Assembly (NCBI GenBank): GCA_018818165.1
Contig: JAHISP010000070.1
Span: 1-64,000 of the forward strand
From: Bacteroidota bacterium
GTDB lineage: Bacteria; Bacteroidota; Ignavibacteria; Ignavibacteriales; Melioribacteraceae
DNA length: 64,000 nucleotides
Direction of reading: 5' to 3'
The notes below the pieces were generated by a model. The model was not told the origin of the DNA. It ran no database searches and was given only the letters and a program-made list of their open reading frames with translations. The position numbers were made by a program, and so were the translations under genes. Numbering within the stretch: the stretch's first letter is position 1; each line of letters opens with the position of its first letter. Of the stretch, positions 46,077 to 49,905 are shown piece after piece.

Positions 46077-46702
46077 TTGTTAAAAAAATGTAGAGGAATT
46101 GTACTCGACAGCGAAAAACCATATTATCGTGTTGCTACCAATGTACATTACTCCTTCATTCTTGATTTTTCAGATAATTCAGCAGAATCTTCTATTTATC
46201 ATAATTCATATAGTGAATATCTTGAATTAGGTAAAAAATATAAATCCGAATTTGAAAATGAATTTAGCACGTGGCTTGCAGACAAATTTAGAGATAGAAT
46301 ACTTAGCCTATCTAATTTATTGTTACGCCTCAGAGATAGTTACACTGCAAACAATTATTTTGGTTTTTTAGAAGATACATTAATAAAAATGAAAGTAAAG
46401 AGCATAGGTCACTTAAGAGCAGACAGCGGATTATATGCAAAAAAAAACTTAGAATATTTGGAGAAAGGTCGATTAAAAGTCGTAAACTATATCATTGCAG
46501 CAACGTTTTACAGACCAATAAAATTAGCCATGTCCTATAAGAAAACATGCTTAAAACTGGATGAAGGCTTAGAAATAGCAGAAGGCAGTTATCAAGCATA
46601 GTATTGGGATTCACCTCGCAGAATGATAAAAGGTAAGAAATAAATAAACGTCCCAAAACAGCCGGCAAGCAACTTCGCTTATTTGAAGAAAGTGAAATAT
46701 TA
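46077..46702 (+). pseudogene. IS1380-family transposase remnant
   Basis: Residues from about 46300 on (RDSYTANNYFGFLEDTL, GHLRADSGLYAKKNLEYLE, IAATFYRPIKLAMS, LDEGLEIAEGSYQA) match the DDE part of IS1380-type transposases. The reading stops at 46599 (TAG), yet the family text continues: YWDSPRRMIK, then after a frameshift KRPKTAGKQLRLFEESEI (about 46646-46700). The start of the open frame (46077-46290) is not recognisable as transposase. Internal deletions, a stop and a frameshift make it inactive. Inverted repeat ends could not be found. Confidence 0.75.
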
Positions 46703-46934: not shown

Positions 46935-47327
46935 TTATGGATTTGGAAAGGTAGTAGCAGTAATAGCATTTGGTGAAAATACCATTTGAACTGTAATTTT
47001 ACTTCCATTAGCGCCATTTTCTGTACCAGTTGCAAGTAAAGTAACTTGTTGTGCAGCAACAGTAGCAGTAACAGCAGCACCCATGTTAGCAGTTGAATCC
47101 AATGATGTAGGAACTGTCCAACCAGTAAATGTGTTTCCGCCACCACCCATTGCAGCAGGTTTTCTGTAATATTGTTGAGCCATTGAGCCAATAGTTTGTA
47201 AGTCAGCTACTAAAGCACTTTTATTGGCTTCAACGCTGCTTGCTGTAAATACATTAATACCTACAACTACCGCAATACCTACTATAATTACTCCAAGAAC
47301 GATAAGTAATAATTGTTGTTGTCCCAT
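46935..47327 (-). CDS. Pilin-like protein with Gly-Gln-rich N-terminus, paralogue 2
   Basis: 130 residues: MGQQQLLLIVLGVIIVGIA, then a long hydrophobic helix, a short helix (EANKSALVADLQTIGSMAQQYY) and a C-terminal beta part starting KPAAMGGGGNTFTGW. The layout (Gly followed by a ~20-residue hydrophobic helix then a helix-plus-sheet head) is that of type IV pilins and pseudopilins, but the Glu5 and Phe1 of classical prepilins are absent. Q-rich 'GQxSLE'-type starts are known from archaeal class III prepilins; this protein resembles that style rather than bacterial pilins. AAAGGAG lies just upstream. It is ~40 bases behind its paralogue. Function not known. Confidence 0.8.
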   Translation of the reverse strand: MGQQQLLLIVLGVIIVGIAVVVGINVFTASSVEANKSALVADLQTIGSMAQQYYRKPAAMGGGGNTFTGWTVPTSLDSTANMGAAVTATVAAQQVTLLATGTENGANGSKITVQMVFSPNAITATTFPNP

Positions 47328-47365
47328 TTGTTTCTCCTTTGTTTGTTAAAGAATGTTATTTGTTT

Positions 47366-47746
47366 TTAATTTATTATTTCTACATTAAATTCAGTAGGCA
47401 AAACAGTTATTTTAACCTCAACTGAATCGTTTCCTTGTACAACTTCGTTACCAACTCCTATTATTACAACATTATTTTCAGAAACAGTTGCTACAAAATT
47501 TCCGTTTGCGTTTGTTTTTAGTAATTCAGGTATATCCCAACCAGTAAATTTATTAGAACCACCCCCCAAAGCAGTTGGAGTTTTGTAAAACTTTTGAGCT
47601 TCACTTGCAAGATGTATAAGATCATTTGTTACGTTATTTCTTTTTGCTTCAATTGCATTGGCAGTAAACAGATTGATACCAACTACAACTGCTACACCGA
47701 CAATAATAATGCCAAGCACAATAAGTAATAGTTGCTGTTGTCCCAT
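47366..47746 (-). CDS. Pilin-like protein with Gly-Gln-rich N-terminus, paralogue 1
   Basis: 126 residues beginning MGQQQLLLIVLGIIIVGVA. It is a close paralogue of the gene downstream: the first 29 residues match nearly throughout, and the AQKFYKTPTALGGGSNKFTGW segment lines up with AQQYYRKPAAMGGGGNTFTGW of the other. The tails differ (VSENNVVIIGVGNE... versus VTATVAAQQV...), as in surface proteins that vary in the exposed part. The frame is open from a TTG at 47749, but the ATG at 47746 has AAAGGA 8 bases upstream. No prepilin peptidase, assembly ATPase or platform gene is near. Confidence 0.8.
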   Translation of the reverse strand: MGQQQLLLIVLGIIIVGVAVVVGINLFTANAIEAKRNNVTNDLIHLASEAQKFYKTPTALGGGSNKFTGWDIPELLKTNANGNFVATVSENNVVIIGVGNEVVQGNDSVEVKITVLPTEFNVEIIN

Positions 47747-47984
47747 CAAATTCCTTTAGTTTTTTGTTTTATCGTAACAAGACAAATTTGATGCCAGTTT
47801 AATAAATATATTACCAAATATTTCGATTTGAAACAAAATATAATTAATAAAGTGTATTTATTTTTTAATATAGAGTAATTTTAGTTTGTTTTTTTTCAAA
47901 AATAGAAATTTAAAAAGAAAATTGAATGCTAATAAGAATAAATGATTAATAAATTATAAGGATATTTTATAAATATTAAAATAA

Positions 47985-48138: not shown

Positions 48139-49905
48139 CTATCTTATTTTAATAAACAATTCTTTAAGTTGTTCTTCGTCAACAAAAGAAGGAGAATCAT
48201 CCATTAATGAGGATGCACTACTTGTTTTAGGGAAAGCAATTACATCTCTAATTGAATCTTCACCAGCAAAAAGCATTGCAAGTCTATCAAATCCAAAAGC
48301 AATACCTCCATGAGGTGGAGCGCCATATTTAAAAGCATTCATTAAGAAACCAAATTTAGTTTCAGCTTCTTCTTTAGAAACGCCTAAAGCATCAAACATC
48401 CGTGATTGCAATTCTGAATTGTGAATTCTTATTGAGCCTCCGGCAATTTCATTGCCATTTAAAACTAAATCATATGCTCTAGCATTAACACTTCCAGGAT
48501 CTGTTTCCAATTTATCTACTTCATCCAAATTTGGAGATGTAAATGGGTGGTGCATTGCATAAAAACGCTTTGTATCTTCATCCCATTCCAAAAGAGGAAA
48601 GTTTGTAACCCATAGAAGTGATGGTTTTGTATCTGGTTTAATTAAATTTAATCTTTTTGCCATTTCAAGACGTAAAAAGCCCATAATCGAAAGTGATTTC
48701 ATTTTTGGTCCTGAAATAATAAATAATAAATCACCTGGCTTTGCACCCAAATTATCAATTATTCCTTGTTTTTCGTCATCAGTCATAAATTTAGCAACAG
48801 GGGCATCCAACCCGTCTTCAGTTACTCGCATCCAAATTAAACCACCTGCACCAAGTTGTTTAACAAAATTTGTTATTACATCAAGCTGATTTCTTGTATA
48901 ATCGCCACAACCTTCTGCAACCAAGCCACTTATAATTCCTTTGGATTCAATTGCATCTTTAAATACTCTAAATTCAGAGTTTTCAAAAACATGATTAAGT
49001 GTTTTCATTTCCAAATTGAAACGAAGATCAGGTTTATCACTTCCATATTTTTCCATAGCTTCGTGGAAATCCATTCTTCTAATTGGAGTTTCAATTTCAG
49101 AATTTTTAGTTTCTTTATAAAGTTTAACCATTAAACCTTCAACCATTTGAAAAATATCTTCTTGGTCAACAAAAGACATTTCAATGTCTATTTGAGTAAA
49201 TTCTGGCTGTCGGTCGGCACGTAAATCTTCATCTCTAAAACATTTAACTATTTGAAAATATTTATCAAATCCAGAAACCATTAATAGCTGTTTGTATGTT
49301 TGTGGAGATTGAGGTAAAGCATAAAATTTTCCACGATGAATTCGGCTTGGAACAAGAAAATCGCGAGCACCTTCGGGAGTTGATTTCATTAAATAAGGAG
49401 TTTCAATTTCTAGAAATCCATTATCATTAAAATAATTTCGAACAGTATTATACATTTTAGAGCGCATTATTAGATTTTTTTGCATTTTTTCACTTCGTAA
49501 ATCTAAATAGCGGTATTCAAGTCTGATGTCTTCATTAACATTTTCACTTTTTTGAATAGGAAATGGAGGAGTTTTTGCTTCATTAAGAATTATAATTTTG
49601 TCAACCATAACATCAATTAAGCCAGTAGGAATTGATAAATTTTCAGTGTTATCAGGTCGTTTTCTAACAGTACCTTCTACTGCTACAACAAATTCACTTC
49701 TCAATGCGGAACCTTCTTTATGCGATTCAACATTATAATGGGGTTCAAATACAATTTGGGTAATTCCATATCGGTCTCTTAAATCGACAAAAATTACACC
49801 GCCAAGATCGCGTCTGTTGTCAACCCAACCATTTAGAATTACCTTTTCCCCAATATTTTCTTCTCTTAATTCCCCACATGTGTGAGTTCTTCTGTTAAAT
49901 TTCAT
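48139..49905 (-). CDS. aspS: Aspartyl-tRNA synthetase
   Basis: Class IIb synthetase that charges tRNA-Asp. An N-terminal OB anticodon domain (1-110), the class II motif 2 (FRDEDLRADRQPEFTQIDIEM), the bacterial GAD insert (about 280-420) and motif 3 (GIAFGFDRLAML) are present; total length 588 aa is typical. The gene is monocistronic: it is followed by a stem-loop, then by the pilin-like genes' regulatory region. It diverges from mlaE. Confidence 0.97.
   Translation of the reverse strand: MKFNRRTHTCGELREENIGEKVILNGWVDNRRDLGGVIFVDLRDRYGITQIVFEPHYNVESHKEGSALRSEFVVAVEGTVRKRPDNTENLSIPTGLIDVMVDKIIILNEAKTPPFPIQKSENVNEDIRLEYRYLDLRSEKMQKNLIMRSKMYNTVRNYFNDNGFLEIETPYLMKSTPEGARDFLVPSRIHRGKFYALPQSPQTYKQLLMVSGFDKYFQIVKCFRDEDLRADRQPEFTQIDIEMSFVDQEDIFQMVEGLMVKLYKETKNSEIETPIRRMDFHEAMEKYGSDKPDLRFNLEMKTLNHVFENSEFRVFKDAIESKGIISGLVAEGCGDYTRNQLDVITNFVKQLGAGGLIWMRVTEDGLDAPVAKFMTDDEKQGIIDNLGAKPGDLLFIISGPKMKSLSIMGFLRLEMAKRLNLIKPDTKPSLLWVTNFPLLEWDEDTKRFYAMHHPFTSPNLDEVDKLETDPGSVNARAYDLVLNGNEIAGGSIRIHNSELQSRMFDALGVSKEEAETKFGFLMNAFKYGAPPHGGIAFGFDRLAMLFAGEDSIRDVIAFPKTSSASSLMDDSPSFVDEEQLKELFIKIR

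Follow-up and report, generated by a model that had tools for sequence, protein, structure and literature searches.

The pilin-like gene pair and its predicted fold

The window, the whole 64,000-nucleotide stretch of DNA that was analysed, comes from a member of the Melioribacteraceae and encodes two small pilin-like proteins in tandem on the minus strand. The first gene of the pair (pilin gene 2, 47366..47746) encodes 126 amino acids beginning MGQQQLLLIVLGIIIVG, and the second (pilin gene 1, 46935..47327) encodes 130 amino acids beginning MGQQQLLLIVLGVIIVG; we annotate both products as leaderless type IV pilin-like subunits. Each start codon is preceded, at a distance of 6-7 nucleotides, by a Shine-Dalgarno-like sequence on the minus strand: AAAGGA (47753..47758) supports the ATG of gene 2 at 47746, and AAGGAG (47334..47339) supports the ATG of gene 1 at 47327. 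An intrinsic terminator of the pair (12-bp stem, 7-nt loop and T run) follows gene 1 on the same strand at 46902-46872. Upstream lies aspS, encoding aspartyl-tRNA synthetase (48139..49905, minus strand); it is the conserved upstream neighbour of the pilin pair and marks the ancestral site, and it stands outside the pilus gene set.

The two proteins are 44% identical and have in common the MGQQQLLLIVLG start, a continuous hydrophobic helix and a GGG-x-N-x-FTGW motif. A first-pass annotation of the DNA had described tandem open reading frames with a common start, a hydrophobic helix, an FTGW motif and divergent tails, and had noted that Phe1 and Glu5 are missing from both proteins; it was right on all of these points. 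Scans of both proteins against Pfam and NCBIfam gave no significant match, and neither protein matched the Pfam N_methyl family (PF07963). A sequence-profile search of solved structures was likewise without a significant match, the best pilin row being Geopilin with an E value of 0.75.

The AlphaFold2 model of pilin gene 1 (139 sequences; mean pLDDT 87.7) has a helix at residues 3-55 followed by strands at 82-90, 95-104, 110-117 and 122-129. The model of pilin gene 2 (57 sequences; pLDDT 84.7) has a helix at residues 2-55 plus four antiparallel strands, and helix length in the two models is 53-54 residues. Foldseek alone returned no match below 0.001 for the pilin model, and we realigned its match list with VIA-align, which ranked type IV pilins at the top. 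For protein 1, the top 12 rows were all type IV pilins (Z 6.3-9.3; next row 4.9), and for protein 2 so were the top 18 rows (Z 5.7-9.5; next row a phage baseplate, 5.5). Z values of this size can, by themselves, mean only a common arrangement of secondary structure, and our argument rests on the consistency of the rows together with the genomic context. Residue 1 of full-length mature pilins aligned mostly to model residues 2-4; the N-terminus as encoded thus corresponds to that of a processed pilin. As modelled, both window proteins have the lollipop fold of type IV pilins, with a long N-terminal helix and an antiparallel sheet as the head. Structure prediction had been suggested as a check on the pilin-like label, and the label is upheld by the fold of both models and by the gene neighbourhood, in which synteny with a type IV pilus machine is conserved.

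Spread and N-termini of the MGQQQ family

Searching with a single protein recovered the MGQQQ family in 52 of 58 relatives, far beyond chance and mostly in two to four copies, and a profile search found MGQQQ pilins in 129 of 395 genomes of the phylum, spread over several classes. The named matches fall mainly in Melioribacteraceae and Ignavibacteriaceae, with one Kryptonia genome (Candidatus Chrysopegis kryptomonas) and one Calditrichaeota MAG. Because the contig scan that gave these named matches used the pattern MGQQQLLL, the invariance of residues 1-8 in the named set is partly by construction. Among 254 members from all loci, 232 start with MGQQQ and nearly all of the others with MG[TSHNM]xQ; a Gly ahead of the hydrophobic stretch is nearly universal among the major pilins.

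The annotated starts are supported across the family. A Shine-Dalgarno sequence is correctly placed in 185 of the 254 homologues, as against 11 control windows, and most members have an in-frame stop 0-5 codons before the start. In 68 of the 254 this stop is at most one codon away, and a hidden leader is therefore impossible in these proteins. Only Met-Gly precedes QQQ, so the hydrophilic leader ending in Gly or Ala that defines a class III signal peptide is absent. Positions 1-24 contain no acidic residue in 139 sequences, none of which has Glu5. The N-terminus is uncharged, and an Arg or Lys is conserved at position 36, after the helix, in 132 of the 139 sequences; with this distribution of charge, the positive-inside rule does not favour a pilin topology.

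This genome encodes a third, divergent paralogue (MGTKQLLLI; MGTKQLLLIAISVF) at L046:9767-10195 (G000:C35). It adjoins a gene for a 567-amino-acid protein in which we recognize, by eye, a sigma-factor-like N-terminus, one transmembrane helix and a FecR-like C-terminus; this neighbourhood possibly represents a dedicated minor pilin or a sensor. The pilin head domain (YY-x-P..GGGG..F) also occurs fused to other membrane anchors, at L048:9313-9993 (G001), L058:7817-8491 (G034) and L049:9261-10415 (G037), the partners being a zinc-ribbon plus DUF4190-like protein and a lipoprotein-like protein.

The assembly machine and its link to the pilins

The first-pass annotation had stated that no assembly genes are adjacent to the pair. 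This is literally true at the locus, but an assembly operon is present on another contig of the same genome, at G000:C61. That operon contains no pilin gene and encodes a PilC/GspF-like platform, a PilB-like ATPase, a PilT-family ATPase, a 516-amino-acid protein, a 302-amino-acid protein, a secretin and a response regulator. Its ATPases score best on the bacterial PilB and PilT models (the PilT-family ATPase with 315.1 bits against a cut-off of 319.1), its platform scores on GspF and its secretin on GspD. The 516-amino-acid protein has a PilN match and is probably a PilMN fusion; the 302-amino-acid protein gave no match to solved structures and is, by appearance, a probable PilOP-like protein.

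In relatives, the MGQQQ pair lies directly upstream of an operon with the order PilC-PilB-PilT-PilMN-302-amino-acid protein-secretin. The platform gene is found within 3 kb downstream and on the same strand in 61 of 72 testable named pilin loci, and aspS is present at 44 of 79 pilin loci. We infer an ancestral order of aspS-pilin-pilin-pilC-pilB-pilT-pilMN-302-amino-acid protein-secretin-response regulator. Close relatives of the window (L005-L007, L064, L065 and L067) have aspS-pilin-pilin without the platform. There are no assembly genes beside the window pair because the operon has relocated and only aspS-pilin-pilin is left at this site in the close relatives; their absence thus reflects relocation in this genus and is not a trait of the pilin family. 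On the side of the pair where relatives carry the platform operon, the window has an open reading frame (46077-46601, plus strand) with a weak match to DUF5752 (E 0.0036, below cut-off), which is possibly tied to the relocation.

Pilins and platform also occur together across the phylum. Among the 395 genomes, the pilins occur in 129 and the platform in 130, with 128 genomes encoding both; the Fisher p value of 2e-101 is only nominal because the genomes are related.

Candidate minor pilins accompany the major ones. Other classes carry three genes between pilB and pilT whose products are GspI/PilV-, GspJ/PilW- and GspK/PilX-like; these labels are based on gene order, size and motifs and not on a family match, the third (GspK/PilX-like) family having a weak match to DUF4900. 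The first minor-pilin family was found in 51 of 58 relatives, and this genome carries two minor-pilin trios in tandem at G000:C12. The minor families, too, start at the helix, with MGTGQ/MNTGQ (MGxGQ), MGFST/MGSQV and MGGKG/MFGKG, respectively. In two genomes of one family, a gene between pilB and pilT encodes a cyclic-nucleotide-binding-like protein (L175:5741-6244 and L176:15750-16286), which may regulate how the pilus extends and retracts.

Prepilin peptidase and the maturation of the pilins

We looked for A24 prepilin peptidases with a model that also recovers bacterial and archaeal enzymes in control genomes. A match was present in 16 of the 129 pilin genomes and none was detectable in the other 113; 112 genomes have pilin and platform without an A24 match. 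Canonical N_methyl pilins are likewise present in all 16 A24-bearing pilin genomes; by their coordinates, an A24 gene and a canonical pilin gene are no more than about 1.3 kb apart in each of the 16. Among the named genomes, 21 of 24 have no A24 match, including two MAGs labelled M. roseus, a one-chromosome Ignavibacterium MAG and the Kryptonia genome; the Calditrichaeota MAG has a match. In this genome, the only A24 peptidase found is encoded at C73, in a canonical T2SS-like operon with GspF, an N_methyl pilin (MENKFLKRTDG|FSLTEL) and GspE. The prepilin peptidase of matching specificity for which the first-pass annotation had proposed a check seems not to exist. As an explanation for the family, we rejected the idea that the MGQQQ pilins are served by the PilD of this genome, since most pilin genomes have no detectable PilD. 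Beside the C73 operon lies a large gene of the Rhs/YD-repeat-like type, and after it come several orphan C-terminal cassettes (L045:413-11580).

Of 33 genomes that have canonical pilins, 14 gave no match with the A24 model, and 12 of those 14 lie outside the MGQQQ pilin set. A divergent peptidase could therefore escape the model, and the misses would then affect whole lineages and not be independent of one another. Two relatives (G215 and G219) have weak, short A24 matches of about 165 amino acids, and seven genomes of another family (G077, G139, G154, G190, G249, G267 and G327) have canonical N_methyl pilins and no A24 match. The Pfam A24 model may therefore miss short divergent peptidases.

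These data bear on how the pilins mature. They could be ordinary type IV pilins with a two-residue leader (MG) that a classical A24 enzyme cuts after Gly2, giving Gln1 as in archaeal class III substrates. Formally, Met-Gly is a minimal leader ending in Gly; the Gly before the hydrophobic stretch of the major pilins would suit such a cut, and this genome does encode an A24 peptidase. However, we consider this very unlikely: in most pilin genomes the enzyme was undetectable, where it is found its gene accompanies the canonical pilins of another system, Glu5 is missing, and in minor pilins that begin with MNTGQ or MFGKG no Gly stands at a shared -1 position. Processing by a peptidase common to these lineages that is either unknown or highly divergent would fit the imperfect detection seen in the canonical-pilin genomes, but the conserved operon contains no candidate peptidase and only Met-Gly could be removed, for which methionine aminopeptidase, acting on Met before Gly, would be enough to take the Met; we regard such an enzyme as improbable.

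It is similarly doubtful that the apparatus is a T2SS-like secretion pseudopilus and not a surface pilus. The GspF and GspD scores of platform and secretin and the GspI/J/K-like minor subunits would agree with a pseudopilus, whereas the PilB-type and PilT-family ATPases (the latter just under its cut-off) have those as their best models and, with the PilN match, point to a type IVa pilus (T4aP); this genome, moreover, has a separate T2SS-like operon with its own canonical pilin. The charge pattern, in which the N-terminus is neutral and an Arg or Lys follows the helix, and the fusion of the head domain to DUF4190-like membrane proteins would be consistent with small membrane proteins that hold their C-terminal domain in the cytoplasm and are not pilins at all. 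Set against the predicted pilin fold and the near-perfect co-occurrence and synteny with the pilus machine, this reading is scarcely tenable.

We think it quite probable, instead, that the pair encodes the major subunits of a type IV pilus that are translated in mature form and assembled without a prepilin peptidase, the lineage having kept the machine and the fold and lost the leader, Glu5 and processing. The computed basis for this proposal of born-mature pili is the fold, the co-occurrence of the gene sets, the synteny, the start sites and the 113 of 129 genomes without a detectable A24 enzyme. Met-Gly-Gln-Gln-Gln as encoded would be the N-terminus of a processed pilin; because of this correspondence, there would be no leader to remove. 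As signal-anchored proteins, the pilins would enter the inner membrane by means of the helix that each carries and would lose at most the Met, with no further proteolysis. The PilB/PilC-type machine encoded at G000:C61 would then polymerise them into a filament, with the leaderless minor pilins from G000:C12 as the tip complex, and the secretin would be the channel through which the filament is extruded. The PilT-family ATPase suggests that the filament can retract, and the pilus would presumably serve in adhesion and/or twitching. The Gln3-5 triad may take over the role of Glu5 and Phe1. It is also likely that Ignavibacteria, Kryptonia, other classes of the phylum and at least one Calditrichaeota genome make type IV pili from wholly born-mature major and minor pilins, in which the peptidase and methylation are dispensable and GQQQ replaces the Glu5 register.

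The MGQQQ pilins resemble the major pilins of T4aP (PilA/PilE, PF07963) in the lollipop fold, the linked PilB, PilC, PilT-family, PilMN and secretin genes and the GspI/J/K-like (PilV/W/X) minor subunits. They differ in having no leader, Glu5, Phe1 or PF07963 match and, mostly, no detectable PilD in the genome. The system would work like a type IV pilus, yet its subunits fall outside the usual sequence definition of a pilin (signal peptide, Glu5 and PF07963). The first-pass annotation had compared the pair with archaeal class III prepilins, which carry an SPIII signal with Gln at +1 and are processed by PibD/EppA. What they share is a Gln near the start of the hydrophobic helix; in contrast, the MGQQQ pilins have a bacterial, T4aP-like machine, no leader past Met-Gly, no Glu at +5 and, in most genomes, no A24 enzyme of the PibD type detected, and the comparison is not supported.

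Prepilin peptidase counts as a core and probably ancestral part of type IV filaments (PMC10191384, PMC6668835), and the purpose of pilin methylation is unsolved (PMC10191384). MSHA pilus loci lack a prepilin peptidase of their own, and MSH genomes carry one in another system (Denise et al. 2019, PMC6668835). They are thus similar to the loci described here in being pilus loci without a peptidase gene, and different in that no peptidase at all is detectable in 113 of the 129 genomes considered here and the pilins are leaderless. In the open-access literature, with most subscription papers outside the search, we found no earlier description of leaderless pilins, of type IV pili without a peptidase or of the MGQQQ start. 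Pilin searches that use PF07963 or the SPIII motif will overlook this whole branch of bacteria. The lineage seems to have lost the leader, Glu5 and the peptidase together, which opens the role of each to a direct test in cultured Melioribacter roseus, for which a closed genome exists.

In M. roseus, pilT, pilQ, pilB and pilC have been reported and pilA and pilD were not found, and the set was taken as incomplete (PMC3534657). These genes belong to the same system as the window pilins, for which pilin and minor-pilin candidates are now identified; a candidate for the missing pilA is thus supplied for genomes described as having incomplete pili. In a candidate M. roseus genome (G012), which has no A24 match, two MGQQQ pilins lie beside the platform operon and a minor-pilin trio is present.
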